Shown here piece after piece: positions 1 to 47,538 of a stretch of DNA of 47,947 bases (the first letter of the stretch is position 1; each line of letters starts with the position of its first letter). Below the pieces are notes generated by a model. It searched no databases and was not told the DNA's origin. It saw only the letters and a program-made list of their open reading frames with translations. The DNA comes from a virus. Both the position numbers and the translations under genes were made by a program. The stretch is taken from the IMG/VR virus record IMGVR_UViG_3300031576_000080, positions 1 to 47,947 of that record; one strand, 5' to 3'.

Positions 1-127
1 CTCGAATCTGCAAAGGGTTAGGACTCAATACAGATTTTGTGTTGACACGGCGGAGGGAAAGCCGATACCCTTGGAAGCGATGCCGAGATACCTGACCACC
101 GAAGAAGTCGCTGCGACCCACGGGTGT
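1..127. repeat. Left copy of the 127-bp terminal direct repeat
   Basis: These 127 bases are identical to the last 127 bases of the window. The copy holds a TTGACA box and the start of the first HTH gene. An exact repeat at both contig ends is the mark of a circular assembly. 127 is a common assembler k-mer length, so this is more likely an assembly overlap than a biological terminal repeat. Confidence 0.95.
42..71 (+). promoter_or_regulatory. Candidate sigma-70 promoter before the first HTH gene
   Basis: A perfect -35 box TTGACA lies at 42-47. The best -10 is TACCCT at 66-71, 18 bp away and only a 3/6 match, so the assignment rests mainly on the -35. A transcript would begin near 78, almost at the ATG at 80. 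That resembles the short-leader or leaderless arrangement of other promoters here, but the fit is weaker. Confidence 0.4.
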
Positions 128-274
128 ACCGTCGTGACCATCACGCGCAACGCCATGATACGCGGCATCAAGCCGACGAAGAAGATCGGCTGCAACTACC
201 TGTGGCGAACCGAGGACGTGCAGCAGCTCAAGCCGGGCACCCCCGGCAGAAAGAAGAAGACCTCACGTGTGTGA
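80..274 (+). CDS. Small HTH DNA-binding protein, excisionase/MerR-like
   Basis: This 64-residue protein begins MPRYLTTEEVAATHGC and continues with VTITRNAMIRGIKPTKK and YLWRTEDV. That is the layout of the winged-helix 'excisionase' fold: tteEvA...gvs..tVtr....G.ip..k.g..y.w...dv. The tail is basic (GRKKKTSRV). An in-frame TTG at 71 is an alternative start; the ATG at 80 is chosen because the candidate promoter would start the transcript close to it. It overlaps the next gene by 8 nt. No integrase was found, so a role as transcription regulator is more likely than true excisionase. DNA binding is inferred from fold only. Confidence 0.6.
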   Translation: MPRYLTTEEVAATHGCTVVTITRNAMIRGIKPTKKIGCNYLWRTEDVQQLKPGTPGRKKKTSRV

Positions 275-3560: not shown

Positions 3561-3661
3561 AACCTCGTTTTTGCAAGTGTTGCGGAGAGGAACTGCCTTG
3601 CCGGAATAGGTGTGGCGCGAAGACGGCGGACGAGACAGAGTGCTTTGTGTTACTGCAATGA
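3557..3661 (+). CDS. Cys-rich miniprotein (34 aa)
   Basis: ATG 3557 overlaps the preceding stop as ATGA. The 34-residue product MKPRFCKCCGEELPCRNRC has seven cysteines in all, with CKCC followed by CRNRC, a compact zinc-binding spacing. It ends 4 nt before the primase start. It is one of several Cys-rich miniproteins in this genome. Function unknown. Confidence 0.55.
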   Translation: MKPRFCKCCGEELPCRNRCGAKTADETECFVLLQ

Positions 3662-3665
3662 CAGC

Positions 3666-5360
3666 ATGGACGCAGCCGAATTCCTCGATCGCCTGTTCGG
3701 GCAATGGATCGGGCCGGAAGCGCGGTTGTCCCTCTTCACGCTTCCGGGCGGGCGCACGGCTTGGTTCGAGGACCCCGCTGCTGCGGCCGAGTACGCAGTG
3801 CGTTGCCGGGATCAGTTCAACGTCTACTTCGGCGTCGGCCTATACCGACCGGGGATCGTGGCTGGTCGAGGCGGCGCTGCCGACGTGGTGTGCGTGACGA
3901 GCATGTGGGCCGACGTGGACTACGGGCCAGGACACAAGACGACGGTGGCGCCGGACCTGGCGTCGGCACGGAGGATTCTGACGCGCGTCGCGTTGGGGGT
4001 GTCCTTGCTGGTCAACTCCGGCCGCGGCCTGCACCCCTATTGGCTGCTGGCGGAGCCGTGTACACCGCCGCGGGCAGAGGAGTTGGCGAAGCGGTGGAGC
4101 AGTAACATCGTCGCCCATGCCGACACGCTGGGGTGGTCCTGCGACAGCGTGGGCGACCTCGCCCGCGTGCTCCGCGTACCAGGAACATACAACCACAAGG
4201 ACGGCGGGAAGGTTCTCGTCGAGGTCGTCGAGGCCAACGACGTGCTGTACTCCGAGGATGACGTTGAGGCAGCGCTGCCGGTCGCTTCGGTGGAGTCTAT
4301 CGCAACCAGCCCCGTCTATTACCAAGGGCCGCTGTCGCTTGATATGGAGCCGCCGGCGGCCAAACTCTATCGTTTTTTGAGCGAGAATCCACGATTTAGG
4401 AAGACGCTGGACCACAAACGCGGCGCTGATCTTAAGTCGGCGAGCGAGTACGACCTGTCGCTGTGTACCCAAGCTCACCAAGCCGGATGGTCGGACGAGG
4501 AGTGCGTCGCATTGATGATCATGTGCCGCAAAATGCACGGGCTGAATCCAGAGAAACTCCTGCGCCGAGATTACGCACAGCGTACCGTCGCGCTGTCCCA
4601 CCAAGCCGACGTGAACGTGATTGACATGCGCGAGTTGGAGTCGTTCTACGACGAGCCGGGCGGCTCAATGGTGTCGCCCGTTACTCCGCCGAGACCGAGC
4701 CCGGGATCGCCCGACGACACCCCCCTGAACAAACTCAGCCGTCTACTGGCCGCCGAACTGGGGGGATTCGTGCAGTACGGCCACGAGGATAGCCGTGTGT
4801 TCTACTGCTTCCGACTGGCCGACGGCCGCGCGGTCTACATCGCCAACGCCAGAATGCTCCTTGACTTCTCCGCCGTATCCGCTCGCTTCATCGAGGCCGT
4901 TCGCCGACCGATCCCCCACCACAAACCCGCCGTGTGGACCAAGATCGTCGAGCTGCTGCTGTCCATCGTCGAGGTCAACCGCGACGAGGAGTACACCCGC
5001 GCGGGCGATTGCCGCCGCTGGCTGACCGGCTACCTTCGCACCAACCAACCGCTGGCCGCCGACCAGAAGGGTTCGGCGCTGGAACGAAACTCACCCTACA
5101 CATCGGACGGACTTCTGAACGTTCACCTACCGTCGGTACACCGTTGGGTGCGACTCGTCGGAATGGAAAGCGTCCCCGCCGTCGCCATAAGAGAGGCCTT
5201 TCGCGCAGCCGGACTCTCCCCCGCGCGCGTGACGGCGAGGACCGAGAACGGCGTCGTCTGTAGAACCTATTGGAGTGTGCCTTTAGATTCGACAGTAGCA
5301 AACGAGGTTTACGGCGTAATACCTTGTGATACCAATGTAATACTAGACAACGAGTCGTAA
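3666..5360 (+). CDS. Archaeo-eukaryotic primase-like primase-polymerase
   Basis: A 564-residue protein with the three AEP motifs in order: hhDhD as WADVDY (D83, D85), the S-x-H motif as NSGRGLH (H123), and the third metal-binding Asp in VGDLARVLRVPGTYN (D164, with conserved R170 and PGTYN). This is the N-terminal prim-pol fold that makes primers and can extend them. A helical PriCT-like segment follows near 280-340 (YDLSLCTQAHQAGWSDEECVAL), then an uncharacterised C-terminal region. ATG 3666 is preferred because it follows the miniprotein stop; an upstream in-frame start at 3612 would overlap it. With no family A/B/C polymerase found, this enzyme probably primes and may help copy the genome. 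The gene's end carries three GTAATAC-like repeats. Confidence 0.85.
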   Translation: MDAAEFLDRLFGQWIGPEARLSLFTLPGGRTAWFEDPAAAAEYAVRCRDQFNVYFGVGLYRPGIVAGRGGAADVVCVTSMWADVDYGPGHKTTVAPDLASARRILTRVALGVSLLVNSGRGLHPYWLLAEPCTPPRAEELAKRWSSNIVAHADTLGWSCDSVGDLARVLRVPGTYNHKDGGKVLVEVVEANDVLYSEDDVEAALPVASVESIATSPVYYQGPLSLDMEPPAAKLYRFLSENPRFRKTLDHKRGADLKSASEYDLSLCTQAHQAGWSDEECVALMIMCRKMHGLNPEKLLRRDYAQRTVALSHQADVNVIDMRELESFYDEPGGSMVSPVTPPRPSPGSPDDTPLNKLSRLLAAELGGFVQYGHEDSRVFYCFRLADGRAVYIANARMLLDFSAVSARFIEAVRRPIPHHKPAVWTKIVELLLSIVEVNRDEEYTRAGDCRRWLTGYLRTNQPLAADQKGSALERNSPYTSDGLLNVHLPSVHRWVRLVGMESVPAVAIREAFRAAGLSPARVTARTENGVVCRTYWSVPLDSTVANEVYGVIPCDTNVILDNES

Positions 5361-8123: not shown

Positions 8124-9686
8124 GTGAATTGGACGAAAGTATCGCCAACTGGCGACGTGGAAGCCGTTGATATCGCGGCCGCGGTCGTAGTCAAAGACGG
8201 CCGCGGCGGCCGTATTGTGCTGAACGACGGAACGCAGCAGGAACCGGCCGGCTTGCGAGACTTGCTGGTGAAATGGCGGCCAGAAGTTCGCGCACGGTTT
8301 CTTGCCGGATATCCGTCAACATCGATCAGCATGGCGGCCTACATGTTCGCCAACGCGATGACGGAGGACGCGCGTCTGATGTGGTGGTCCACGATGCTCG
8401 CTCGCATCGACCTCGCCCCCCCGCCATGTCCGCCGCTAGACCCGAATGTCATCCAAGCGTGGCCGTTGGCAAACGCGCTGGAGGAACACCTCGACAAGTT
8501 CACTGGCCTGACCAATGGGTGGCTCGTCCACGTCCCCACGCTGCCGGTGCCGTGGTTCGTGCCCGTCGGTGCCTTGGCCGACTTGGAAGATGACGGGGTT
8601 GTCGTATACGTCCCGCAGACGCCCCCAATTCCGCCACCGGCTCCTCCCATTCCACCCCCGCCGACCGAGCCGACGGCGACGTGGACTGACCTTGGCACTG
8701 CTACGTCGGGCACGGGTCATCCGGCAGTAGCGATCGTCGCAATGGATGGTGATCTGCTGCTGCTCTGCACGCGAGACGGTGGACCCGTGGGCCGCACTTG
8801 GTCGGTGCAGGCGCAGTCGCTAAGCCTTGGCTTCCCACTTTCCGCCGACAGCGTGGGCGGTCAGGTCAACGCCATTTACACGACCGGCGGGGTAGTGCAG
8901 ATGTCTCTATACGCACACGGCGACGTGCAAGACTTCGACTCTGTTCCCAAGTCACTTCAACGCCGCGGCACGCCGATCAAGGGCACAGACACCAACGGTC
9001 GTTCCGTGCGGGCGCGGTCAGTGTTCCCGGCGGTTGGCGGCTTGATCTATACGTGCGGCGCGCTGACGCCGACGAAGGGATCGACCGGAGCAGCCGGCGG
9101 ATACGCCAGCGTGTGCGAGGGGGGAGTACAATCAATCCTGTTCCTGTCTACCCCTGTGATCATCGGCGGCGGAATGATCGGGGGGGCGCCACGATTCGTC
9201 ACCGCCCTGGGCACCATTTTGGACGCTTCGGGCGCCGTTCTCTACGACACTGGGATGACCGCTCTGCGCCGCGCCCTGGTAACGGAAACCTCGATTCACA
9301 TCGCCGTCGGCGCGCACACGCTCGAAACCGTCGCCGAAGGCTATCGGGTGAGTGAGACGCCAGGCGCGATTCACAGCGTTGCTACTTTCGGTGACGCCGG
9401 CGCTCGCGAGTGGCCGCTGCCGAACGGGTATACGTGGCCGCTCCGGGGCGTCGGGTTGGAGCTGATGCCGTTGTTCGAGGGGCCGGGCAGCGTGTATGCC
9501 CTCCTGACGGTGGATCACGGCATTCTCGACGCCGACTACTCGCTCTGGCGGGTAAGCGACACGAGTCTGATCCACGTCATCGACCTGGGAGCGTGGCAGA
9601 TGCTCGTCGCCTGTCGGTTCGGCGACAAGATCGCCGCGCTCGCCGTTAAGGATGGTGGGCACCACTTGGGGATCGTTGAGTGCTAG
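8124..9686 (+). CDS. Large Pro-rich, possibly beta-propeller protein, unknown function
   Basis: A 520-residue protein from GTG 8124 with AAGGAG upstream. The N-terminal 150 residues are mixed alpha/beta. A proline linker follows at roughly 165-182 (TPPIPPPAPPIPPPPTEP). The rest is beta-rich and repetitive (VAIVAMDGDLLLLCTRDG, FRVG-type blades, GAWQMLVACRFGDKIAALAV), reminiscent of a beta-propeller. No signal peptide or membrane segment is visible. It stands outside the virion module, next to a DNA methyltransferase, so it may be a non-structural accessory or a receptor-binding protein encoded away from the tail genes. Family not recognised. Confidence 0.6.
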   Translation: MNWTKVSPTGDVEAVDIAAAVVVKDGRGGRIVLNDGTQQEPAGLRDLLVKWRPEVRARFLAGYPSTSISMAAYMFANAMTEDARLMWWSTMLARIDLAPPPCPPLDPNVIQAWPLANALEEHLDKFTGLTNGWLVHVPTLPVPWFVPVGALADLEDDGVVVYVPQTPPIPPPAPPIPPPPTEPTATWTDLGTATSGTGHPAVAIVAMDGDLLLLCTRDGGPVGRTWSVQAQSLSLGFPLSADSVGGQVNAIYTTGGVVQMSLYAHGDVQDFDSVPKSLQRRGTPIKGTDTNGRSVRARSVFPAVGGLIYTCGALTPTKGSTGAAGGYASVCEGGVQSILFLSTPVIIGGGMIGGAPRFVTALGTILDASGAVLYDTGMTALRRALVTETSIHIAVGAHTLETVAEGYRVSETPGAIHSVATFGDAGAREWPLPNGYTWPLRGVGLELMPLFEGPGSVYALLTVDHGILDADYSLWRVSDTSLIHVIDLGAWQMLVACRFGDKIAALAVKDGGHHLGIVEC

Positions 9687-9694
9687 GGGGTGAA

Positions 9695-10459
9695 GTGAAG
9701 CAGTTGGTCTTGTCGTTGTTTCCTGGCATTGACCTGCTCGGCATAGCGTTCGAGCAGGAGGGCTTCTGCGTGGTGCGCGGCCCGGACGTGATCTTCGGCG
9801 GTGACATTCGCGGCTGGGACGTTCCGGCCGGGCGGTTCGACGGCGTGATCGGCGGTCCGCCGTGCCAGACATTCTCTCGGCTAGCGCACATGGTCCGTCA
9901 GAATGGGCATGAGCCGAAGTTCGGCAACCTCATCCCGGAGTTCGAGCGGGTCGTCTCCGAGGCTCGGCCGCAGTGGTTCGTGATGGAGGAAGTCCCCGAC
10001 GCCCCGACGCCAACCGTAGACGCTTACGGCGTGCACTCGTTCCTGCTCAACAACCGCCAACTCGGCGAGCGACAGAACCGCGTCCGGCGGTGGTCGTTCG
10101 GCTGGCGCGGCGAACGTCGCGTGCTCGCCGTCGAGACAGTGGTGTTCGAGAACCAGGAGTATGAGTACGCGGCAACGGGTAGGGGGGACTTCATCAGGCG
10201 CGGACCGATGATCACCATCGGCGGAAGCGGGAGGCGTAAGAAAGATCGAATGAGCAGGATGGGGTACAGAAACAAGGCCGCGTTTCCAGCCCTGTGTGAG
10301 CAGCAGGGCTTGCCGTGTGGATTCGCCCTGCCTGATTTCACGGCGAGAGCTCGTTTGCAGGCAGTGGGCAATGGCGTCCCGCTGCCGATGGGTCGGGCGA
10401 TCGCCAAGGCCGTCCGCCTAGCGAACGCTCCGCTGCTGAATCACAAGGGGGATCGTTGA
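9695..10459 (+). CDS. C5-cytosine DNA methyltransferase (first)
   Basis: A 254-residue Dcm-family enzyme. Motif I is LSLFPGID (6-13), motif IV GGPPCQTFS with nucleophile Cys57 (counting from GTG 9695), motif VI EEVPDA (ENV in most relatives, here EEV), motif VIII ERQNRVRR, motif X LQAVGNGVPLPMGRAIAKAV. It methylates carbon 5 of cytosine using S-adenosylmethionine. It is short, with a small target-recognition region. GTG 9695 has AGGGGG 4 nt upstream; GTG 9680 would overlap the previous gene by 7 nt. No restriction enzyme is adjacent, so it most likely protects phage DNA. Confidence 0.88.
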   Translation: MKQLVLSLFPGIDLLGIAFEQEGFCVVRGPDVIFGGDIRGWDVPAGRFDGVIGGPPCQTFSRLAHMVRQNGHEPKFGNLIPEFERVVSEARPQWFVMEEVPDAPTPTVDAYGVHSFLLNNRQLGERQNRVRRWSFGWRGERRVLAVETVVFENQEYEYAATGRGDFIRRGPMITIGGSGRRKKDRMSRMGYRNKAAFPALCEQQGLPCGFALPDFTARARLQAVGNGVPLPMGRAIAKAVRLANAPLLNHKGDR

Positions 10460-15351: not shown

Positions 15352-15876
15352 GTGAGACGAGATGCCCAATCAGGGAGCAACGGACAGCCCAAGGGCAACA
15401 GAAAGGCCCGCAGCCGCAACGATCGCACGGCTGCCGAGGCGGACCTCCGCATGTCACACTACGCCAGCATCTCGGCGGCCGAGTGGGAAGACATGGGAGG
15501 GATCAACCAGATGCTACGCAAACGGCACGAGAAGCTGTACGGCGTTCCGATTGCAACGGCGACGATCAGTCTCGGCGCCGTCATTCGCTGGCTTCATTCG
15601 TTCCTGTCCGACCTATCCGCCGGCAAGCGAAGCTACAACAAGGAAGAGGACACCGAACTATCGAAGCTCCGCGGCGTCAAAACGAAGCTCGAAGAGCTCA
15701 AGCTGGAACGGGAGTTGGGTATGACCATCCCGCGCGAACAGGTCCACCACACGATCACTCGCGTCGCCTCCATTCTCCGCCGCTGCGGCGGGAAGCTGCG
15801 CGAGAAGTTCGGCGACGACGCCGCCGATATACTAAATGACGCACTGGACGAAATTGATGAGGAAGCCAAAGAATGA
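15352..15876 (+). CDS. Terminase small subunit-like protein
   Basis: A 174-residue protein from GTG 15352. The N-terminus is basic and probably disordered, followed by a possible DNA-binding region. The C-terminal half, with ELSKLRGVKTKLEELKLERE, then MTIPREQVHHTITRV and a final acidic helix, resembles the C-terminus of Nu1/DNA-packaging proteins (KaeleLe.a.g.lip..ev...). It would recognise the packaging site and recruit the large subunit encoded at 18771. An unusually long gap, filled by methyltransferases, separates the two. Confidence 0.65.
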   Translation: MRRDAQSGSNGQPKGNRKARSRNDRTAAEADLRMSHYASISAAEWEDMGGINQMLRKRHEKLYGVPIATATISLGAVIRWLHSFLSDLSAGKRSYNKEEDTELSKLRGVKTKLEELKLERELGMTIPREQVHHTITRVASILRRCGGKLREKFGDDAADILNDALDEIDEEAKE

Positions 15877-16121
15877 TCCTGTTCAGAATTAGTTGGTTTA
15901 AAGGCGAACAAGAACATGGCATTGAAGACGCCAGCTCGACCAACGAAGAAGAGGCCGCGGAGGAAACCAGAGCAATACTAGGCAACAAAGCCCCCCCCGT
16001 GGTGTGTGTTGAGCGCATAGACCGAGACATCTTAGATTACTACGATGCGCAGGCAGTGTGCGTTCCAGGAGTGCGAGGGTTGCTGGACCCTTTGCCTCCA
16101 CCCTTCGCCTCCGCAAGTTGA
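15873..16121 (+). CDS. Small acidic hypothetical protein
   Basis: An 82-residue ORF, ATGA-coupled to the small terminase. The first half is acidic (EDASSTNEEEAAEETRAI) and the C-terminus Pro-rich. It stops 11 nt before the methyltransferase ATG. No family recognised. Confidence 0.45.
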   Translation: MILFRISWFKGEQEHGIEDASSTNEEEAAEETRAILGNKAPPVVCVERIDRDILDYYDAQAVCVPGVRGLLDPLPPPFASAS

Positions 16122-16132
16122 GTCGGACGATT

Positions 16133-18516
<2,384 letters not shown>

Positions 18517-18582: not shown

Positions 18583-18774
18583 ATGAAGGACCAATACTTG
18601 GGAGATGGCGTCTATGCGTCTTACGACGGATATCACGGTTAGCTTGACTTGCGCGAGCAAGACGACACGACGCGGATCGCGATGGAGCCGCCCGTAATAA
18701 ACAGATTGCTTCGTTATATTGAGCAACTTCGACTCACCGTAAACCGTGCTGTAGTCGAGGCCGATTCCACGTGA
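18583..18774 (+). pseudogene. Conserved small phage protein interrupted by an in-frame amber codon
   Basis: ATG 18583 reads MKDQYLGDGVYASYDGYHG, then TAG at 18640-18642, then LDLREQDDTTRIAMEPPV and NRLLRYIEQLRLT to a TGA at 18772-18774. Both halves fit one phage protein pattern: Y-L-G-D-G-V-Y-A-x-x-D-G-Y...(W)L...I-x-L-E-P-x-V...L-x-R-Y-I. A Trp (TGG) is often found at about the interrupted position, so one G-to-A change explains the stop. The final TGA overlaps the terminase GTG, preserving coupling. TAG is a normal terminator elsewhere in this genome (e.g. 9684-9686), so genome-wide recoding is unlikely. A second short ORF (18510-18647) overlaps it. Confidence 0.65.
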
Positions 18775-20864
18775 CCACCGCCCTCGCCGACCATCCCGCA
18801 ATGCACGAAGAACTTCGTTGGCTTACCACCAACGCGAGGCCGCCAAAGCTGCGCAGTCTGCTTCAGTTCGCGGAAGAAGAGATCAGGCTGCCTCGCGGAC
18901 CATACCGCGCCGAGCGCTTCCGAGGTCGCACACAGCCGTGGATGATCCTCGCATTTGACCTGCTCGACTCCATGTCTCAGAACGGATGGAAGCGCGCGTT
19001 CCTCGTCGGCCCGCCACAAAGCGCCAAGACCTTCATCATCGTCGTTTACACGCTACACTGCCTGTTCGAGCGTGGCGAGACGGTCATCTTCGCCGGCCGA
19101 GACATCGACATGTGCAAGGAGAAGTGGCGCAATGACCTCTCCCCGGTCATCAAGACCACACGATTCGAGGAGTACATGCCCGCGACGGGAAAAGGCAGCC
19201 GCGGCGGCGACACCGACGAGATCGCCTTTGAGAACGGCGCCAACCTGAAGTTCATGGGCGGCGCCGGCGGAACTATCCAGCAAGCCGCCTACACCGCCCG
19301 GTACGTCGTTTGCACGGAGATCGACAAGTGGCCGGCTGCGACCCCAGGCGAGGCCGACCCGCTCAGCCTGATAGAGAAACGCACAGACGCCTACGGCGAC
19401 GCCGGTGTCATCATCGGCGAGTGCACCGTCACCGAGCCGCAGGGGCGAATTTGGAGCGAGTACGCGCGCGGCACGGCCACGAAGATCGTCGTCCCGTGCC
19501 AGCGTTGCGGAGAGTGGGTCAGCCCATCCCGCGATCACCTGCGCGGCTGGAACGACGCCATCGACGAGATTGAAGCCCGCCGCGCAGCCTTCCACTGCCC
19601 CGCGTGCGATACGCCGTGGACCGACCGGGATCGTTTCGAGGCCAACCACAAGTGCCGATTCGTTCATCGGCTGCGAACGTCAGACCACCAAGAAGTCACG
19701 CGAGCCGTTCACGGTCAGACGGACCACGCAGAAGTCTGGCAACATCTCACGAAAGACGGCGAAGTCGTTGGCGACGCCGTTCGAACGCGAACGCTCAGTT
19801 TCCGCTGGTCGGCGTTCAACAACATGTTCTGGGCGCAAGGGGCCATCGGACAGGACGAGTGGGCGGCGTCAAGGCGCAACGACGAGGACGAGGCCGCGAA
19901 AGACATGCTCCAAGGCCGATGGGCGATTCCGTACACGCCGCCGGAGATCGACCTGGCCGCGTTGAACCCGGACGCCCTCGAGCGCAAGTGCCTGCCATTC
20001 GGCCAAGGTTTCGTCCCGCCGTGGACCGACGTGCTCGCCGTCGGCATTGACCTGGGTCTGGACTACGGCCATGCCGTGACCGCCGCTTTCAGGCTCGACG
20101 GCACATCTCACGTCGTCAACTACGAGCGCATCGACGTACCAGGCCGCGACATCGGACCCGAACGCGGCATCAATGCAGCACTGGCCGCCTACAAAGACGT
20201 GTGCGACGCCGGCTGGTCGATGGAAGGCGGCTGCCGCAAGCCCGATGTCGTGGTTGTGGACTGCGGCTGGGAGACCGAGACGGTGTATCGGTCATGCCGG
20301 CCGCTCGGCTTCGTTCCTCTTATGGGCTGGGGCGCAGGCCAGTTCCTCAAGCAAAACCGCACCTACCGACACCCGTCGAAGACACAAGGCGCCGTCACCT
20401 GGCGGGGAGTCAACTGCCATCAGCGCAAGGTGACGCTCATCGGAGGAGGCGGATACTTCCGCATCGACGCCGACGCCGACTTCTGGAAATCGTGGGTTCA
20501 CGCGAGGTTGGGGACTCCGATCGGACAGCCAACCTCCATGACCTTGTATCAGTGCGTGCCCGGCAAGGCGCGGCGAACGTTCGTGTTGCACCTGAGCGCC
20601 GAACGGAAAAGGCAAGCATGGATTCCAGGCCGGGGAACGGTTATCGTGTGGGAGAGCCTGCGGCGTGGGAATCACTACCTCGACGCCCTGTACTACGCAG
20701 CGTGCGGAGCGCACCTGCGCGGCGTTCGAGTGAGCGAGAATCCGATCTCGGCGGTGGCGCCGAAGGTCGAAGCGAGTGAAGAAGTAAAGGCCGCGGTCGA
20801 GACGATCCAGAGTAGGGCGTCACGGTCGTCCGCGAGCAGACCTTATATTTTGAGCGGGAGATGA
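18771..20864 (+). CDS. Terminase large subunit, GpA family
   Basis: A 697-residue packaging motor of the lambda GpA type. Walker A is GPPQSAKT (80-87). The Walker B region is VVCTEIDKW (179-187). A zinc-binding pair, CQRC (243-246) and CPAC (276-279), is typical of GpA. The nuclease domain begins near 423 with VGIDLGLDYGHAV. It cuts concatemeric DNA and pumps it through the portal with ATP. GpA terminases usually make cohesive ends, so the virion DNA may have cos ends even though the assembly is circular. GTG 18771 is coupled to the upstream broken gene. Confidence 0.92.
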   Translation: MTTALADHPAMHEELRWLTTNARPPKLRSLLQFAEEEIRLPRGPYRAERFRGRTQPWMILAFDLLDSMSQNGWKRAFLVGPPQSAKTFIIVVYTLHCLFERGETVIFAGRDIDMCKEKWRNDLSPVIKTTRFEEYMPATGKGSRGGDTDEIAFENGANLKFMGGAGGTIQQAAYTARYVVCTEIDKWPAATPGEADPLSLIEKRTDAYGDAGVIIGECTVTEPQGRIWSEYARGTATKIVVPCQRCGEWVSPSRDHLRGWNDAIDEIEARRAAFHCPACDTPWTDRDRFEANHKCRFVHRLRTSDHQEVTRAVHGQTDHAEVWQHLTKDGEVVGDAVRTRTLSFRWSAFNNMFWAQGAIGQDEWAASRRNDEDEAAKDMLQGRWAIPYTPPEIDLAALNPDALERKCLPFGQGFVPPWTDVLAVGIDLGLDYGHAVTAAFRLDGTSHVVNYERIDVPGRDIGPERGINAALAAYKDVCDAGWSMEGGCRKPDVVVVDCGWETETVYRSCRPLGFVPLMGWGAGQFLKQNRTYRHPSKTQGAVTWRGVNCHQRKVTLIGGGGYFRIDADADFWKSWVHARLGTPIGQPTSMTLYQCVPGKARRTFVLHLSAERKRQAWIPGRGTVIVWESLRRGNHYLDALYYAACGAHLRGVRVSENPISAVAPKVEASEEVKAAVETIQSRASRSSASRPYILSGR

Positions 20865-21711: not shown

Positions 21712-22805
21712 GGCGCACAGTCTGGACCGGGCAATGTCCCATCCCACGCACACCCGAAGTAGAATGGTTCCTGCTCGGGCAAGTCCATTGGCGGGTAAAG
21801 ACCGGTATCGTCGGTCGGACTGACTCTCATAGACGGATAAGCCAGCCACGAGAAACCGCCGTCAATAAGCGGCGGCGGATCAATCAGCGTAACGCACGGC
21901 GACCAGTTGATCGCCGCCGAGGGATAGTGCGTGTCCACCGGGTACGGATCAGTGTGCTGAGTGAAGACGAACAGCGTGCTCGACGGCTTGAAACCCGGCG
22001 GTAAGGTCTCGTCGTAGAAGTTCTCGATGCTGACCTCGGTCGCGAAGTCGTAGTGGGTTGCCGTGCCGGTCAACTGATACGTCACGCTCGGATAGTTGAC
22101 GATCGGACCGGTCTGGCAACTTGCCCAGCGGTGTTGAGGGTAATACCTGGAAAAGAAGGCGTTGTTTTTAGACAGAATCAGACGAGCGCGATATCCGCCT
22201 TGTCCTCGCGGATCAATGAACGTGTACTTGTATCGCGGCTGCCCATTGAAGTACAGATACAGCGGACTCGGCATGTTGAAGAACGCGACCTGCCACGGCA
22301 CGCGCTGATAGCCGTCCTCTCCGTAGCCGCCGGGCACGGCGTCGTAGCAAACACACTCGGGCTTCTGTCCGGCCGGTCCGGCGTCGGAGTCGAACGAGAA
22401 GCAGCTCGGCACGATGATCTGTGAACCAGAACCAGGACGCTCTAACGTCATCCAGAAATGATGCCCATTCTGTGCAGCGCGCTCCATCTGACCGCGATAA
22501 AGGACTTCTTCGCCACAACACCTAAGCGCGAACAGACGGTGATGTCCTGTATCCGTTTGCGGTTCACTGTGTGGATATAGATGGATGTCTCGATACAGTA
22601 CGCCGGTCGGAGCACAGCACTTATCGCGCTGATCACCTACCCCCGACCAATAGAACGGCGTCCCCGGTATCCACCAATCAGGCAAACACGTTGCGGGAGG
22701 TGGTTCTGCAACCTCGACTCTGGCGCCGACGAATGGACGGAAGTAGCACGGTTCGTCGCCGGCAACGCCTATGGGAAGCATCGGCGATGGAACAGTCACC
22801 TCCAT
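21708..22805 (-). CDS. Putative tail-tip or virion protein, Cys-rich
   Basis: A 365-residue protein. ATG 22805 is preferred (TGATG overlap with the previous stop, GGAG upstream); 22826 is an alternative. It has many cysteines and aromatic residues and looks like an extracellular beta-rich protein (PSPLYLYFNGQPRYKYTF). At the distal end of the tail genes, it is most likely a tail-tip or host-binding component. Family not recognised. Confidence 0.55.
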   Translation of the reverse strand: MEVTVPSPMLPIGVAGDEPCYFRPFVGARVEVAEPPPATCLPDWWIPGTPFYWSGVGDQRDKCCAPTGVLYRDIHLYPHSEPQTDTGHHRLFALRCCGEEVLYRGQMERAAQNGHHFWMTLERPGSGSQIIVPSCFSFDSDAGPAGQKPECVCYDAVPGGYGEDGYQRVPWQVAFFNMPSPLYLYFNGQPRYKYTFIDPRGQGGYRARLILSKNNAFFSRYYPQHRWASCQTGPIVNYPSVTYQLTGTATHYDFATEVSIENFYDETLPPGFKPSSTLFVFTQHTDPYPVDTHYPSAAINWSPCVTLIDPPPLIDGGFSWLAYPSMRVSPTDDTGLYPPMDLPEQEPFYFGCAWDGTLPGPDCAP

Positions 22806-26387: not shown

Positions 26388-28274
26388 TCAGACCCCCGTG
26401 AAGGTGTCTCCACTGACCGGGGCGGTAGTCAGTGCCGTAACCGTGAGGACGCCGCCCGCCGTGGAAGCAGTGATGTCCGTGGCCTGCCCACGCAGATTGA
26501 CGGTCGTCGTGGTCTCATCGAAGATGACGATCCGCCCCTTGAACTGATCCGTTACCGCAGCCGCCGGATCGAGGCTTGATGTAACGATACTCGTCGTGCT
26601 GGACGCCGCACCGACCGTGCCCTTGATGATGGTTCTGGCGCTGCGCTCCAGCCGCGACACTGGACTGGTGTTGTTGTTGATCGCCTGAACGTCACTACTC
26701 ATTCGACCGCCGCTAAGAGCGGCCGGGAGTCGAGTCTGAATATTGTCAGTGTCGGCCTGGACGGTAGCTAGGGCAGCGCTTGTGGCGAGACCGACTTGGA
26801 TTTCGGTCACGGCGTCAGCGGCGAGTTCGGAGGCCCCGATGGCATCCGGCGCGATCTTCGCCGCCGTGATGGCATCCGCAGCGATCGCAGCCGCGTCGAT
26901 CGCACCGGCGGCGAACTTGGCCGCCGTAATCGCCCCGGTTGCAATGGCCGCCGCGTCAATGGCTCCGGCCGCGAATGAGGCAGCGGCAATCCCTCCTACC
27001 GCTGGGTTGGCAGTAAGCGTTTCCGTGACGTTGAATGCGGCATTGTCGATCGCCCCCGCTCCGAACGAGGCAGCGGTAATCCCGCCGGCCGCCGGGTTCG
27101 CAGTCAGCGTCTCTGTAACGTTAAAGGCCGCGTTGTCGATCGCGCCGGCCGCGAAACTCCCCGCCACGACTGCTCCCGTACCGACGACCTGAGCGTTGGC
27201 GTTCACGCGGCCGGAGATGAGGGCGTTGACGGCCGACCCATCCCACAACTCCACATCCGACCGGGCCGCCAGAAGAATCTCGTAGGTCTGGGTGGCCACC
27301 GCCTGAGTCGTCGCCGGAGCGAAAGTAAAGGTCGCGGCATCGAATGCAGTGATAAGTCGAACCTGGCCGCTGATCGTCCCGCTGGTAAAGAGAAGCAGAC
27401 ACCCCTTCCAGTAATCCGTGTCGGCCTCGGTTCTCGCGGCGTCCACCATCGTCGTCGTCGAGCCGGAGTCCGCTGTACCACTGACCAACGATCTGATCTT
27501 GGTCACGGCGTCGGTTGCCAGAGCGTCGGCGTCGATCGCCCCCGTGGCCACGGCTGCCGCCGTGATCACTCCCGCAGCCATCGCCCCCACACTGGCGTCG
27601 ATGCGACCGGAGACCAGAGCAGCGGGGAGCCGCGCCTGGATGTCATTGGTGTCGGCCTGAATGGAGGCCGTCTCCGTCTTGATCGTGTCCAACGTCGCCG
27701 TCGTCGCGGCCCCGGCGACGTGGGTGATGTCAACCTCTGGAACCCCGGCTACCGTAGGCGTTGCCGCCGCCGTGCCGAGCCAGCGCACCACGTTTCCGTC
27801 GATCATGCCGTTGGCTGGCTGGTTGATCTGACCCGCCCCCGTTCCGCGCGTGTACAGCCCCCCGGCAGCTTCCGCCGCGACGTTCGGGATCGCTCCGCCG
27901 GTGGTGGCGAAGAGGGCATCGTACAGTGCAGCATTCAGAACCATGAACTCGTGAAATACCGGAACATGATTCGCGGCATCTGTGATTGACAGGAACATCC
28001 TACCCAGACGGTTCACATCCGCTGCCGCCAATTCCATCTGCATCAGACCAGCATCGCCGCCGGTGATGTAGTTCAGGTCGTTCGCCGTCGCCGCTGTGGC
28101 TCCGGTGATGTTGTCCAGGATCAGCGTCGGCGCAGCACCGTCGTCGGTATCCGCCGTCAACGTGATGCGCTCATTGGTGATGGTCAGGGCGTTCTCGATG
28201 GTCACGCCGTCCGTCTTGTCATAGAACGGGCCGACTGTGATGATAACCGCCGTGTTTTTCCGCAGAAAGCGCAT
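26388..28274 (-). CDS. Tail-fibre-like protein with Ala-rich repeats
   Basis: A 628-residue protein. Its middle is made of repeats typical of fibrous trimers: two 30-residue units (FAAGAIDNAAFNVTETLT...), then 20-residue units (AGAIDAAAIATGAITAAKF) and shorter A-I-x-A-A steps. Beta-rich domains flank them. Such A-G-A-I repeats form beta-solenoid or coiled shafts in fibres. The N-terminus (MRFLRKNTAVIITVGPF) may attach to the tail. Repeat number probably varies between strains. Confidence 0.7.
   Translation of the reverse strand: MRFLRKNTAVIITVGPFYDKTDGVTIENALTITNERITLTADTDDGAAPTLILDNITGATAATANDLNYITGGDAGLMQMELAAADVNRLGRMFLSITDAANHVPVFHEFMVLNAALYDALFATTGGAIPNVAAEAAGGLYTRGTGAGQINQPANGMIDGNVVRWLGTAAATPTVAGVPEVDITHVAGAATTATLDTIKTETASIQADTNDIQARLPAALVSGRIDASVGAMAAGVITAAAVATGAIDADALATDAVTKIRSLVSGTADSGSTTTMVDAARTEADTDYWKGCLLLFTSGTISGQVRLITAFDAATFTFAPATTQAVATQTYEILLAARSDVELWDGSAVNALISGRVNANAQVVGTGAVVAGSFAAGAIDNAAFNVTETLTANPAAGGITAASFGAGAIDNAAFNVTETLTANPAVGGIAAASFAAGAIDAAAIATGAITAAKFAAGAIDAAAIAADAITAAKIAPDAIGASELAADAVTEIQVGLATSAALATVQADTDNIQTRLPAALSGGRMSSDVQAINNNTSPVSRLERSARTIIKGTVGAASSTTSIVTSSLDPAAAVTDQFKGRIVIFDETTTTVNLRGQATDITASTAGGVLTVTALTTAPVSGDTFTGV
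26916..27155 (-). repeat. Tandem repeats inside the fibre gene
   Basis: Two 90-bp units (27066-27155 and 26976-27065) encode nearly identical 30-residue blocks starting FAAG/FGAG and ending AAS. A 60-bp unit follows (26916-26975). The units differ at several silent positions, so the duplication is not recent. Confidence 0.75.
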
Positions 28275-40838: not shown

Positions 40839-42293
40839 TCAGATGGCCACGGAAGCCATCAACTTGTTCCGCTCGGCGTCGCCCTTCGGCAACCCTCGCA
40901 CCTTATCGCCCACCTCGATGCACCGAGCAACGTAGGCTTGGTGCGCAGAACGATTCAATCGCACCGCCGTCGCCACAGCGTCGTGACGCTTCGTTCCGCC
41001 GGCCATGCGGACGCGACAGTCGTGGATGAAGGCGTCGGCATCATCTCCGCCGGTCCCGCCGTCGTCGGCAGCGTGAACGCCGCTGCCCAACGGCTTGATC
41101 CCAGACCCGGGCCCGGCCAACTTCGCGCCGGCCAACTCCTCCTCGACCGCCTTCAACTTCGCCGCCTGCTCGGCGATCGTCGCCTGCTGAATCTTGGAGA
41201 ACTCGGCCTGCGCCGCCACGAGCGTCAGGCTCCGCTCCACACAGGACTCGCGGAACTCGGCCGTGCTAGTCGGCATCGCAGCCTTCAACTCCGTAAACGT
41301 CGCCGGCTGCGGACCGGACGACGTACCCTTATCAGTCGCCGTACTCATGTCATCCTCCGCCGCCTCAGCGGCATTCATATCCACGGGCGCTTCGGCGCCC
41401 ACCAAGTCAATCTTCGCCTCCTCATGTGCCATCAACAGCACGCCAAGGTCACCGCTCGCTCCCTTTTTGATTCCCAGGCTCGCTTCCATCTCGCCGATCA
41501 CGTCGTCGAGACTGCCCACCGCGTCGGCCAAGCCCACCTTCACCGCGTCCGCCCCAACCCATATCGCGCCCGTGGCCAACTCGCGCACTTCCTTCACGCT
41601 CATGCCGCGGCCGGAAGCGACGGCCTTGACGAAGCGATCCGTGATCACGTCAATAGTGCTCTGCAACTCGGCTTCCTGCTCGGCAGTCAAAGGGTCGCCA
41701 GCGACCACCCCAATGAGCTTGAACCGGCCGCCACGAATCACCTTCGTGACCTTGCCCTGCATCTCAAACATCTTGGAACTGTCAACGACCCAATCCACAG
41801 CCGCAAGTGACCCGACGATCGCAGTAGAGTTCACGACGATCCGATCCGCCTGCGACGCCGCCCAATACGCAGCCGAGGCGCCAACATCGTCGATGTACGC
41901 AATCAGTTTTTTTCGTTGCCCATACCGCTTCAAATCGTCGGCCAAGTCGGCGGTGCCTGCCACGCTTCCACCAGGCGAATCGAACCGAACCACGAGGGAC
42001 CGATTCTCCTTGTCCTCCATCAGCCCGCGGACCGCACGCCTCATCCGCACCGTGCCCGCCCGATTGAACAACGACGACCCGTACTTGGTCATCGTCCCGC
42101 GAACATCCATGACCGCGATCCCGCTTGGAAGCCGCGTGACAAAGTTGTCTTCCTCGTCGTCCTCGTCCCGTGCCGCCTGAGCCGCAATGTGCGCGTTCAG
42201 ATCAATCGTTCCCAGACGATCGAGAATGCCGTTCATCGCATGCTCGTGGATCGCCCACGCGCCGTTGTACTGTTCCAAACGGAGATCGGTCAC
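40839..42293 (-). CDS. S49-family prohead protease with scaffold-like C-terminus
   Basis: A 484-residue ClpP-fold serine protease of the SppA/gpC type. Motifs: VRFDSPGGSVAG (102-113), catalytic GASAAYW with Ser140, and STAIVGSLA (156-164). From ~290 the protein is a helical, Lys/Glu-rich tail (AEFSKIQQATIAEQAAKLKA) like the scaffold in gpC/Nu3. It cleaves head proteins during maturation and clears the scaffold. GTGA-coupled to the portal gene. Confidence 0.88.
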   Translation of the reverse strand: MTDLRLEQYNGAWAIHEHAMNGILDRLGTIDLNAHIAAQAARDEDDEEDNFVTRLPSGIAVMDVRGTMTKYGSSLFNRAGTVRMRRAVRGLMEDKENRSLVVRFDSPGGSVAGTADLADDLKRYGQRKKLIAYIDDVGASAAYWAASQADRIVVNSTAIVGSLAAVDWVVDSSKMFEMQGKVTKVIRGGRFKLIGVVAGDPLTAEQEAELQSTIDVITDRFVKAVASGRGMSVKEVRELATGAIWVGADAVKVGLADAVGSLDDVIGEMEASLGIKKGASGDLGVLLMAHEEAKIDLVGAEAPVDMNAAEAAEDDMSTATDKGTSSGPQPATFTELKAAMPTSTAEFRESCVERSLTLVAAQAEFSKIQQATIAEQAAKLKAVEEELAGAKLAGPGSGIKPLGSGVHAADDGGTGGDDADAFIHDCRVRMAGGTKRHDAVATAVRLNRSAHQAYVARCIEVGDKVRGLPKGDAERNKLMASVAI

Positions 42294-43972
42294 GTGTTGC
42301 TCTCCGAACCATTACGATCCTGCCGATCCGCCACTTCCTCAGCCACGTCGGCCGCGACCAGGGCGTCCTCGCTCGGGGCCGCACCGGGGCCGTAGGCCAA
42401 CTCTCGCCAGCTCACCGGATCGTCGTCGCCGAACTGTGCATTGACCTCATCGGCCTTCGTCTTCGCCGTGCGCACCAGCAGCGCCCGATCCTCCACGATC
42501 TGCGGGACCTCGTCCTCCCAGTCAATGCCACGGTCCGCGTATATCCGCGACTTGGAAGACATGTTCTTCTCGTCGCGCATCACGTCGGCCTTGATATCCT
42601 TGTCTGGGTCGATGTACGGCCACCGACCACGCCGGACATCGTGCTTGAAGACGTTCACCCCAACTCGACCGGCCAATCTCCGCAGCGCCGCGTCTTGCCG
42701 AATCCAGTTTCGGACCCGCCACAGCCACGTTGGCCGAATGAAAGACCGCGCCAGCCAATCCTGCCAGACCTCCCAACTCTGCCGTGCGTCTTCCTTCACA
42801 CCGCGCATCGAGGACCAATTCGTCTGGCTGCTGTCAAAAAGAAGGATAATCAACGGCAAGTCCATGTTGATCGCAATAAACGTCAACAAGAGCAGCGCAT
42901 ACGGCTTGAACTCCGGGTTGGGCACGTCGGCGGTCATAAAGTCCAGCTTCTTGCCGCGCAGCAGGTCCACCTTGAAGATCGGGCCGTCAATGTCCTGCTG
43001 GCGGATCGTGGTGCTGCCATCGCGCGCCGTGCTCGTCGCCTCAGAACCAAACGCCGTACCCGGCGCCGTGATTGACGCCTCGGCGTCGCCCGCCACAAAC
43101 GACTCCACGAGACCAAGCATTGACGCGAGCTTCTGCTGTATGCCCCTCGCCCACTGGATGTCGTCGTGCATCTGTGCTGCGTCGCAACCTGGCGCCAGCA
43201 CGCTCGCGCCCCGCGTCTGTGACGTCCGAATCGGACGCATCACGTGAAGCACCTGCGGGTTCCCATCGCCATCCAGTGCCGGATACCGCGTGAACCTTGT
43301 CCCCGCCATCGACACGTTCGCCAAACCCACGTCGTCGTTCGTGAACCAGTAGGCCATCTCCTCGCGCACCGGACTCAGCTCGACACCGTGGACCACGTTT
43401 AACCTCGCGTCGTTCGGCGACCGACACCGATGAGCCTCAACGTACTGAAGTCTCACATCCGGCAACAACAACGCGAAGTGGTCGCCGTCCACGAGAGACT
43501 GCGAAAAAGTGAGCTTCTGGCCGATTGAGAAGTCGTAGCGGCCCGAAACGTCCACCGCGCGCGGGTCGTTCGACCACTCTTCGTCGTAAGCCTTCAACGT
43601 GGCATCCAACTCGTCGTCGCCTGTCCGAGGCTCATCTCGCAGCGGCTTGTTCAGAACGAAGTCCGTCACCCGCCGAATGCCCTGCGCGACTACGATGTCG
43701 TCCCGCGCGAACATCCGATGCCGCTCCATCGCCCGAAGCCACTCCGTCGTCTGCTTAACGTGGTAGTCATGGCCGCTGCCCATCGGATGTGTGCCGGGGG
43801 GAGGCTGACGATATCGCGTGACTTCACCAGACTTGTAGCTCGCCGAATACTCCCGCCCGAAGTCGCGCAGCAAGTCCCGCACGGAATCGAGATCGCCGGC
43901 GAATTGCTTCACCGTGTCCCGAACGGACTTCACGAACGGCGCACGCCGCGTTGTTCCGTTCGTCCCCGTCAC
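42290..43972 (-). CDS. Portal protein, lambda gpB family
   Basis: A 560-residue protein from GTG 43972. gpB-type features: YSASYKSGEVTRYRQPPPGT, HDYHVKQTTEWLRAMERHRM, the long crown helix region LLLLTFIAINMDLPLIILL and DSSQTNWSSMRGVKEDARQS, the last strongly typical of gpB portals. It forms the dodecamer through which DNA enters and leaves. GTGA-coupled to its neighbour. Confidence 0.9.
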   Translation of the reverse strand: MTGTNGTTRRAPFVKSVRDTVKQFAGDLDSVRDLLRDFGREYSASYKSGEVTRYRQPPPGTHPMGSGHDYHVKQTTEWLRAMERHRMFARDDIVVAQGIRRVTDFVLNKPLRDEPRTGDDELDATLKAYDEEWSNDPRAVDVSGRYDFSIGQKLTFSQSLVDGDHFALLLPDVRLQYVEAHRCRSPNDARLNVVHGVELSPVREEMAYWFTNDDVGLANVSMAGTRFTRYPALDGDGNPQVLHVMRPIRTSQTRGASVLAPGCDAAQMHDDIQWARGIQQKLASMLGLVESFVAGDAEASITAPGTAFGSEATSTARDGSTTIRQQDIDGPIFKVDLLRGKKLDFMTADVPNPEFKPYALLLLTFIAINMDLPLIILLFDSSQTNWSSMRGVKEDARQSWEVWQDWLARSFIRPTWLWRVRNWIRQDAALRRLAGRVGVNVFKHDVRRGRWPYIDPDKDIKADVMRDEKNMSSKSRIYADRGIDWEDEVPQIVEDRALLVRTAKTKADEVNAQFGDDDPVSWRELAYGPGAAPSEDALVAADVAEEVADRQDRNGSESNT

Positions 43973-44247
43973 CGAGCACCCCAGTTGTAAAATTGCGGGT
44001 AGGTCACCCGACTCCCCGACGCCGTCGCCCCAGCGTAGAACGCCTCGACCTTCGCCTGCTCACGCATCCAGTAGTCGCCGTCGAACCGAATCCGCTGATC
44101 ACCGTTCTCAACCTCCCGCGGGCTGAACACGATCAACTGCCGGATCGCCTGCACCCGCCGAAACGCCAACGCCCCCGTCGCATCGCTCTCGTACCCCACG
44201 GTGTCAAACAGCTCGACGTAGACCCCCGCGAGGGTGTCGATCGCCAT
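43969..44247 (-). CDS. Small connector-like protein before the portal
   Basis: A 92-residue protein from ATG 44247 (MAIDTLAGVYVELFDTVG). Helical with a central RVQAIRQLIVFSPREVENGD. In lambda the small protein W lies just before portal B, so a similar head-tail joining role is possible, though length and text differ. The longer reading from 44409 runs through the tandem repeats and is rejected as the main start. Confidence 0.6.
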   Translation of the reverse strand: MAIDTLAGVYVELFDTVGYESDATGALAFRRVQAIRQLIVFSPREVENGDQRIRFDGDYWMREQAKVEAFYAGATASGSRVTYPQFYNWGAR

Positions 44248-44286
44248 GAAACAACCGTCAACACCACCAAACACCGCGTCAAGGGC

Positions 44287-44373
44287 TGTACCACCGTGGT
44301 ACAGCCTGTACCACCGTGTACCACCGTGTACCACCGTGTACCACCGTGTACCACCGTGTACCACGGTGGTACA
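44287..44373. repeat. 10-bp tandem array bounded by 17-bp palindromes, divergent control region
   Basis: Five exact copies of TGTACCACCG (44307-44356) and one variant TGTACCACGG (44357-44366). On the left is the palindrome TGTACCACCGTGGTACA (44287-44303), on the right TGTACCACGGTGGTACA (44357-44373). All use the half-site TGTACCAC. Spacing of 10 bp puts each site on the same DNA face. Placed between divergent operons, it may be an operator for a cooperative repressor, a partition-like site, or a second set of iterons. Confidence 0.85.
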
Positions 44374-44389
44374 CGTTACAAACCCCCAC

Positions 44390-44395: not shown

Positions 44396-44589
44396 GGAAC
44401 CAAAAACACGAAAGTAGCACAACCGCCCCAAGGGCACTCGCTCTAGGAGGCAAGATAGAACCTATGGCGTGGTTTTCAGAGCGCAAGCACCCCCGGCCAC
44501 CCACCACTCGCATTATAAGCCCTCGGAAGGCCGCAGGAAACCAGCCGGAATCGCCACGAAAAAAACTTGAAATATTTCCGAAATGGGTC

Positions 44590-44618
44590 TTGACAAGGGC
44601 AGAGATAGACGATATGCT
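44590..44618 (+). promoter_or_regulatory. Sigma-70 promoter for the rightward 44.7-kb operon
   Basis: TTGACA (44590-44595), 17-bp spacer, TATGCT (44613-44618). Perfect -35, 4/6 -10, ideal spacing. Transcription should begin near 44625. A GTG at 44626 follows, but the ORF from it looks non-coding; the probable first gene is at 44670 with its own ribosome site. Confidence 0.7.
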
Positions 44619-44669
44619 ACTGACCGTGCGATCGGGATTGTCCGACCGACAAATACGGGAGAATCGAAC

Positions 44670-44879
44670 ATGCAGCTTTCTTGCTCGACAATCTGGGAAG
44701 GATACGCGACCGACGCCGACGCGAAAGCCGCGCGCGACGCCGAGTATCGTATTCGCCGAGCAGCCGGCCAGCGCTGCCGGCGATTCGTCCTACGAAACCA
44801 GCTCCACAAGTATGCCAGCTTCGACGTCCCCGACGGGCGCGTTTGTGACGTGTACCGTCTAGACGTCGTGGCCGCCTGA
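44670..44879 (+). CDS. Small hypothetical protein
   Basis: A 69-residue protein from ATG 44670 with GGGAGAA about 7 nt upstream. Text: MQLSCSTIWEGYATDADAKA, basic helix YRIRRAAGQRCRR, then a beta end (SFDVPDGRVCDVYRLDV). First gene after the best promoter in this region, so it is probably expressed early. Family not recognised. Confidence 0.6.
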   Translation: MQLSCSTIWEGYATDADAKAARDAEYRIRRAAGQRCRRFVLRNQLHKYASFDVPDGRVCDVYRLDVVAA

Positions 44880-44962
44880 CGATCCCCGACAACCGCGCCC
44901 GGGGGGCGGGGGCGCCGGGGGAATGACGAATCGACTCGGAAACATGTCGGGAGTGCTGAACT

Positions 44963-45652
44963 ATGCTAAGCGAGCGATACAGACCGAAAACGTGGGCGGA
45001 CTTCGTCGGCCAGCCAATCATCGACGACATCCGCCAAGCGTGCGGTGACGCGCACCTGTTCGACGGCTGCGGGGAGCGCTGGCTATTCGAGTCCGACGGG
45101 CACGCCGGCTGCGGGAAAACATCCGCAGCCTACATGGTCGCGCGCGCGCTCGGCGTCGGCGAACACGCGACCGAGTGCATCGACTCGCGGGCGGTGACGA
45201 TTGCCGACCTGCGAGAGTTGTCGGCGTCCATGCGGTTCTACGGATGGGGCGGCAACGGCCAGCGAGCGTACATCGTCGATGAAGTCCACGACCTGAATCC
45301 GGCGTGCCTGCGGATGCTGCTCGGCTTGCTGGAATCGCTTCCGCCTCACGTCATCGTCATCGGGACCACGACGCGAACGGACTGGGCCGACAGCGTGAAC
45401 GGTCTGTATTCGCGGTGGCGGCGCTTCACCTTCCGCAAGCCGGCGGCGCCGGAGATAGCGGAGCTGCTCGAGCGCATCGCCTTGCGGGAGGGTTACGACG
45501 TTCCGGCCGGTTTCCGCTGGCTATCCTATGTGCAGGGCAAGTGCGGCGCCCGCCTGGTCGGCAACAACGTCCGTGATTGCATCGACCAGCTCCCGGACGC
45601 GCTGCGGAGATACAAGAGATCGGCCGTAGCGGCCGTAGAGTGCGCAGCATGA
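44963..45652 (+). CDS. AAA+ clamp-loader-like ATPase (RFC small subunit/DnaX type)
   Basis: A 229-residue ATPase. Signature RYRPKTWADFVGQ (5-17), Walker A GHAGCGKT (46-53), Walker B YIVDEVHDL (103-111), sensor 1 VIGTTTR (132-138) and an SRW at 150-152 in place of the SRC arginine finger. These are the features of RFC/DnaX clamp-loader subunits, but the C-terminal collar domain is short. No sliding clamp or polymerase gene was recognised, so it may load the host clamp or have another remodelling job. GGGAG precedes ATG 44963. A G-rich tract (44901-44921) lies in its upstream region. Confidence 0.85.
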   Translation: MLSERYRPKTWADFVGQPIIDDIRQACGDAHLFDGCGERWLFESDGHAGCGKTSAAYMVARALGVGEHATECIDSRAVTIADLRELSASMRFYGWGGNGQRAYIVDEVHDLNPACLRMLLGLLESLPPHVIVIGTTTRTDWADSVNGLYSRWRRFTFRKPAAPEIAELLERIALREGYDVPAGFRWLSYVQGKCGARLVGNNVRDCIDQLPDALRRYKRSAVAAVECAA

Positions 45653-47325: not shown

Positions 47326-47538
47326 GTGAACGTCGGCGGCGAACGTTTTTCGTGCTTGCGCTCCGCCGCCGCCCAGCTCGGCGTCCCGGCGCGCTGGCTA
47401 CGCGCTGAAGCTGACACCGATCGCGTCCCACACTTGCGCGTCGGTCGGCGCGTGTTGTTCGACGTAGGCAGTGCCCGGCGTGTGTTGTTGAAGCGATCCA
47501 CTGAATGCGAGGACGACAATGGCGAACCTGCAAGCTGA
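47326..47538 (+). CDS. Small HTH protein, excisionase/MerR-like
   Basis: A 70-residue protein from GTG 47326. SAAAQLGVPARWLRAEADTD, then RVPHLRVGRRVLFD, fits the excisionase-type winged helix (aA..Lgvp..wLr.e...G.iPhlr.Gr..lfd). The end is acidic. It starts 6 nt after a -10 box and has no ribosome site, consistent with leaderless translation. It may control neighbouring promoters. The ORF reading back to 47032 has no coding character. Confidence 0.7.
   Translation: MNVGGERFSCLRSAAAQLGVPARWLRAEADTDRVPHLRVGRRVLFDVGSARRVLLKRSTECEDDNGEPAS

Follow-up and report, generated by a model that had tools for sequence, protein, structure and literature searches.

Apl of phage 186 acts at seven direct repeats, spaced at 10–11 bp between pR and pL, and represses both promoters (PMC7498355). 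BldC, a 68-aa MerR-like protein, forms head-to-tail filaments on direct repeats (PMC5859096), and RdfS shows a behaviour similar to that of BldC and Apl (PMC11963761). P2 Cox and lambda Xis, which are small winged HTH proteins of the excisionase type, build cooperative filaments on tandem direct sites (PMC7498355, PMC11963761).

The window (the whole stretch of viral DNA that was analysed, 47,947 nucleotides) is a complete and circular record whose ends share 127 bp, which gives a genome of about 47,820 bp. In the gap between its leftward virion-gene block and its rightward replication-gene block, nine 8-bp half-sites of TGTACCAC lie within 44284–44375, seven in forward (F) and two in reverse (R) orientation. 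They follow each other in the order F44287, R44296, F44307, F44317, F44327, F44337, F44347, F44357 and R44366, with centre spacings of 9, 11, five times 10 and finally 9 bp. The array consists of the following elements:

44284–44306, no strand: left cap, a perfect 23-bp palindrome GGCTGTACCACCGTGGTACAGCC with half-sites F 44287–44294 and R 44296–44303 (palindrome scan)
44296–44314, no strand: perfect 19-bp palindrome GTGGTACAGCCTGTACCAC, bridging the left cap and the first tandem unit (palindrome scan)
44307–44356, plus strand: five contiguous exact 10-bp units TGTACCACCG (sequence, TRF, motif count)
44355–44375, no strand: right cap, a perfect 21-bp palindrome CGTGTACCACGGTGGTACACG with half-sites F 44357–44364 and R 44366–44373 (palindrome scan)

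The five exact contiguous repeats plus a variant that the initial annotation had described were confirmed, and a sixth exact forward copy was found besides. The exact unit TGTACCACCG starts at 44287, 44307, 44317, 44327, 44337 and 44347, the forward variant TGTACCACGG starts at 44357, and reverse copies of TGTACCACCG occupy 44294–44303 (one mismatch) and 44364–44373 (exact). The direct repeats (six exact and one variant forward copy) are spaced by about a helix turn, and six of them are joined by five consecutive 10-bp steps; each end palindrome contains one inverted half-site, so that two of the nine deviate from the common orientation. Palindromic caps had been noted as 17 bp long; they are present at both ends, but are perfect over 23 and 21 bp. 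The further proposal that all sites lie on one face of the helix holds approximately, as a pitch of 10.0 against about 10.5 bp per turn would produce a drift of about 100 degrees over six units.

The regularity of the array, which had been called unusual, is beyond chance in the shuffle and lag-10 comparisons, and array and caps together are far beyond chance. Its TRF score of 127 ranks second among the 23 rows listed for the window. Matches with at most one mismatch numbered 13 in the window, compared with a mean of 2.35 and a maximum of 8 in 100 shuffles. Lag-10 identity in the best 40-bp stretch reached 40/40 in the array, compared with at most 24 in the rest of the window and at most 26 in 30 Markov shuffles. 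Outside the array, the exact half-site occurs in the whole genome as a single forward copy at 27474, and no second array of such sites was found in the circular genome; a binding protein would therefore have one array to occupy. A coding repeat was rejected, as a unit of 10 bp is not divisible by three and the overlapping frames have no gene-like context. The array region gave no Rfam match above threshold and no terminator in the promoter/terminator scan, and no tRNA was found. Other tandem repeats, with 90-bp and 30-bp units, are located at 26972–27143 and 26837–26927 within a 628-aa Ala/Asp-repeat-rich gene of the virion-gene block. Directly before the array, on the plus strand, stands CGTCAAGGGC; several portal loci that are unrelated also have a TGTCAA(G) motif shortly before their array (L210 at 1602, L216 at 2018, L225 at 1479, L230 at 1651, as well as L231 and L243, where it follows the HTH gene).

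The genes and signals that bear on the function of the array are:

40839–42293, minus strand: head maturation protease (family profile match)
42290–43972, minus strand: portal protein, lambda family, PF05136 (family profile match)
43969–44247, minus strand: 92-aa opening gene of the structural operon, without family match, gpW/head-tail-joining by position
44277–44282, minus strand (that of the structural operon): TTGACG, a -35-like hexamer 4 bp beyond the array, read from the sequence and absent from the promoter-scan output
44590–44618, plus strand: sigma-70-like promoter TTGACA-17-TATGCT, into the replication operon (promoter scan)
44670–44879, plus strand: small gene, 69 aa, function not recognised (ORF; Pfam and PHROG scans)
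44963–45652, plus strand: clamp loader AAA+ ATPase (family match; 70% identical in the viral record G001)
47326–47538, plus strand: 70-aa excisionase-like HTH protein, second candidate for binding (phrog_1840, E = 0.0011, marginal)
80–274, plus strand: 64-aa HTH protein, candidate for binding (phrog_66 “excisionase and transcriptional regulator”, E = 1.6e-4; HTH_17, E = 0.04)
3612–5360: primase-like gene (family match)
15352–15876: small terminase (family match)
18771–20864: large terminase (family match)

Between the array and the leftward structural operon, whose first gene starts at 44247, lie 40 bp; annotated phages whose portals are related have a gene in this position that is named head-tail joining or gpW-like. 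A promoter at TTGACG is a conjecture, and no good -10 element follows the hexamer. The only sigma-70-like promoter found in the region (one, compared with 0.2 expected) points away from the structural operon and starts about 215 bp from the array. On the replication side the clamp loader is followed by a DUF932 gene on the plus strand, and past the circular junction by the 64-aa HTH gene, a SNF2 helicase, the primase-like gene and UvrD. No integrase was found among the proteins scanned against Pfam and PHROGs, and no attachment site was recognised. The genome also carries three DNA methyltransferase genes, two C5 and one N6/N4 (9680–10459, 16058–17095 and 17092–18516). A further frame at 44464–44862, which overlaps the gene at 44670 and has no family match, is preceded by AGGAGG; its start, MAWFSERK, recalls the start MAWLERKEG of the array-adjacent HTH protein in locus L279.

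Comparison with the Apl operators of phage 186 revealed direct repeats at a spacing of 10–11 bp in a promoter control region (a putative one in the window) in both cases, together with a cooperative small excisionase-type protein in 186 (PMC7498355) and a putative one in the window. In 186, however, inverted caps are not described, the promoters face each other and the sites belong to a lysis-lysogeny switch, whereas the window array precedes a structural operon in a genome in which no integrase was found. The BldC operators of Streptomyces (whiI, smeA-sffA) share direct repeats of about one turn and a small HTH protein; BldC is winged and has 68 aa, and the HTH_17-like window candidate of 64 aa is likened to it by size and class (PMC5859096). 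They differ in serving a host regulon instead of a single phage site, in their imperfect AT-rich repeats and in that palindromic caps are not described for them. The P2 Cox and lambda Xis sites resemble the window array in their tandem direct arrangement, but lie beside attachment sites or in a P2-type switch.

The initial annotation had suggested one of two small HTH proteins as the cognate binder, and for the protein encoded at 80–274 this idea was partly borne out. It belongs weakly to a family whose members directly adjoin the array in two related phages; phrog_66 is its best PHROG match, though a weak one, and its HTH_17 score lies under the curated cut-off. It may be regarded as the leading candidate for the array-binding protein. 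The HTH matches of the protein encoded at 47326–47538 are marginal only. The gene at 80–274 lies on the far side of the circular junction, some 3.5 kb downstream from the array, and neither HTH gene of the window adjoins the array, unlike in several other array-bearing phages. Neither protein had a sequence match in the PDB, and unaligned AlphaFold models of both (pLDDT 55–56) were unusable.

Searching viral contigs for an exact 20-mer of the array unit gave no match. Relatives were sought through the clamp loader, portal and DUF932 proteins, which yielded one mosaic relative, G001, with the clamp loader alone at 70% identity. This record lacks the window unit and carries other 10–13-bp repeats (CCTACTATAC, CCCTACCCCA) between primase-like and small-terminase-like genes. 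Its non-coding gap from a D5-like primase-helicase to a small-terminase-like gene (L005, 4306–4958) is crowded with 10–13-bp repeat families (ACTATACCCT, AAACCCTACCCCA, GTTATCGGACGT). Absence of the array from relatives had been named as evidence against a function, and the outcome is mixed: the sole close gene match found has different repeats, while distant portal-related phages have arrays at the matching place.

Three copies of the core GTACCA at 10-bp spacing were present at 79 viral loci, on many contigs that are apparently unrelated and differ in their linkers. The scan was compared with one control hexamer of the same composition, AGTCCA, which gave 30 loci; plain tandem repetition therefore explains part of the GTACCA excess. 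Against this single control, inverted cores in the flank (26/76 compared with 3/37) and non-identical linkers (41/76 compared with 14/37) were more frequent in the GTACCA arrays. Within one group of related phages, the GTACCA copy outside the search requirement was 92–100% conserved, whereas linkers fell to 46%; cores kept while linkers vary are as expected of binding sites, which these may be. GTACCA arrays often lie between primase/helicase genes and terminase/portal genes. An array of closely similar design (G004, locus L051) has TGTACCA units at 10 bp and an inverted, cap-like copy at its end (15-bp match, one mismatch), and is likewise placed between divergent operons ahead of a packaging/structural module. 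It differs in having three forward units only, a shorter cap and an adjacent XRE-type HTH gene, after which small terminase, large terminase and portal follow downstream. Among 35 array records, G004 was the only one with such a cap, and palindromic caps are thus not a general feature. Two further GTACCA arrays were noted in other settings: one immediately after a tyrosine-integrase-like gene, at its 3' end (L009, 2408–2433), where arm-type or excisionase sites would be expected, and one of about fourteen copies, with ten-bp units ATTGTACCAC, in the bacterial genome of an Akkermansiaceae contig (L102, 6109–6165).

Among the large array records that the GTACCA and control scans had yielded, only two, G013 and G014, encode a window-like portal (E below 1e-12). 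In both, the array is located directly ahead of a gpW-like gene and the portal and behind an HTH-like gene; that of G014 matches a regulator family only weakly (phrog_14076). For a motif-independent comparison, at least 80 loci with related portals were collected (distant relatives, about 22–28% identity), one of which, L279, is G013; among the matches listed, 52 non-redundant loci had at least 1 kb of upstream sequence each. An array with 7–11-bp units was found just upstream of the portal in 12 of these 52 listed loci, and in the other 40 any array was below the threshold used. The controls gave no arrays in an equal stretch inside the portal gene and a mean of 0.03 in shuffles. The units differ among the loci (GTTTCCATGTT, CCGTTTCCATA, CACCAAAACG, TTTGTTCCC, GTGAACC and others). 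L231 and L243, which were not seed loci, showed weaker 11-bp repeats by eye.

Upstream of the array, L210, L215, L225, L227, L228 and L279 carry an HTH-like gene of 72–80 aa, directly before the array except in L210 (two genes between) and, less closely, L227. Those of L228 and L279 are clear members of HTH_17 and of phrog_66 “excisionase and transcriptional regulator”, the PHROG that is also the best, though weak, match of the window protein encoded at 80–274. The genes of L210, L215, L225 and L227 matched no known HTH family and were called by length, position and eye. Such a gene accompanied 7 of the 12 arrays, compared with 5 of the 40 loci without an array, a comparison that is biased by the use of array-bearing loci as seeds for the models. 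In other phages the neighbour of the array is instead an XRE-type or DUF1492/late-activator-like gene, and the binders of such arrays may belong to more than one family. Several loci have a AAAACCCC element before gpW, which in some forms an inverted repeat with a terminal T run and was read by eye as a terminator hairpin. In L215, L218, L225, L227 and L243 an inverted repeat AAAACCCCATG...GGGGTTTTTT with the appearance of an intrinsic terminator lies directly 5' of the gpW start codon, at the entrance of the structural operon. The -35/array geometry of L048 and the AAAACCCC element were also considered as promoters, which could not be supported.

The sites might instead be iterons recognised by an initiator of the phage (its primase, for instance, or a different early protein), with the AT-rich stretch at about 44556 as the unwinding element. 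A replication initiator had been among the binders first proposed, with GC skew as the check. Cumulative GC skew indeed has its minimum at 44899 (44.9 kb) and its maximum at 22280, about half a genome apart, the 60-mer starting at 44556 is among the most AT-rich of the genome, and several other GTACCA arrays lie beside primase/helicase genes. However, the skew switch coincides with the gene-strand switch, so that its support is confounded, and in other array genomes the skew minimum is rarely near the array. No DnaA box was found near the array and no initiator gene beside the repeats; the nearest replication gene is the clamp loader at 590 bp, and the primase-like gene is about 7 kb away. Since arrays moreover recur before portal genes and not with one initiator family, an origin appears unlikely. 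A pac or cos-like region, on whose regularly spaced sites a small terminase ring or its HTH subunits would assemble, is judged improbable as well. HTH domains occur in small terminases, an oligomer would match a set of nine half-sites, and in many other phages terminase genes lie within a few kb of the array. In many of them, however, terminase is merely the neighbouring module, and array units vary widely among phages with related portals. In the window genome the array sits with the portal, and both terminase genes, the small one included, are about 19–24 kb from it.

Lambda-type operators are palindromes of about 17 bp. The array could accordingly be an ordinary phage-repressor operator (17–21-bp palindromes) whose half-site was amplified by replication slippage, the tandem part having no function of its own; the 17-bp palindrome size, the exact copies, which fit recent slippage, and the XRE gene beside the G004 array would agree with this. 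Yet unrelated phages whose units differ have arrays at the corresponding position, and in the phage group tested the cores are kept and the linkers vary. Repetition itself would therefore seem to be selected, which argues against slippage; in addition, no repressor gene was recognised in the window, and this explanation also has little probability. In some partition centromeres, such as the ParR-bound parC repeats, direct and inverted units are mixed. The omega/parS heptad arrays of pSM19035 are likewise made of short units placed end to end, some direct and some inverted, a layout that they share with the window array. The repeat pitch and mixed orientation recall such centromeres, of which pSM19035 parS is treated in PMC9499535. 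The pSM19035 units, however, are 7 bp long and depend on a ribbon-helix-helix protein with a ParA partner. Scanning the window proteins against Pfam and PHROGs revealed no ParA, ParM, TubZ or ribbon-helix-helix protein, so that the partition protein that had been listed as a binder found no counterpart and a centromere is very improbable.

Cooperative, filament-like binding by a regulator, which the initial annotation had already suggested, is the best-supported reading here. Pitch, number of sites and candidate size fit it, but the inverted caps do not. We consider it marginally probable that a winged-helix regulator of the BldC/Xis/Apl kind binds the array cooperatively and head to tail and controls the structural operon, the caps possibly limiting the filament. 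Monomers of a small HTH protein would line up head to tail on the direct 10-bp sites, with one monomer for each helix turn, and their cooperative build-up would form a short nucleoprotein filament ahead of the gpW-portal-protease operon. By activation or by repression, this filament could set the timing of transcription of the structural operon and perhaps of the divergent replication operon too. By analogy, its pitch and number of sites appear to fit the array to the Apl/BldC/RdfS mode, for which the phage has a candidate protein of suitable size and, by a weak match, of the suitable family. The inverted caps are the distinctive part and seem to lie outside the published head-to-tail binding mode, which does not explain them because the known binders use direct repeats. 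A role of the inverted end half-sites as stops, or as high-affinity anchors bounding the filament, is a proposal only.

Filament-forming HTH regulators on direct repeats are known in few systems, mostly from prophage excision and Streptomyces development. A broader interpretation, which we put forward tentatively and with some doubt, is that short direct-repeat arrays with units of 7–11 bp, whose unit sequence differs in nearly every phage and which often lie beside a small winged-HTH gene, stand at the entrance of the gpW-portal operon in many tailed phages that are not related to each other. Such arrays would then represent an undescribed, fast-diverging, filament-based module of late-gene control, of which the window array would be an elaborate example with a filament length fixed by its caps. 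If this is true of unrelated phages generally, sequence could be used to predict how late genes are controlled in many uncultured phages, and the capped array would offer a compact test of how filaments stop, a question left open by the spreading of Apl into non-specific DNA.
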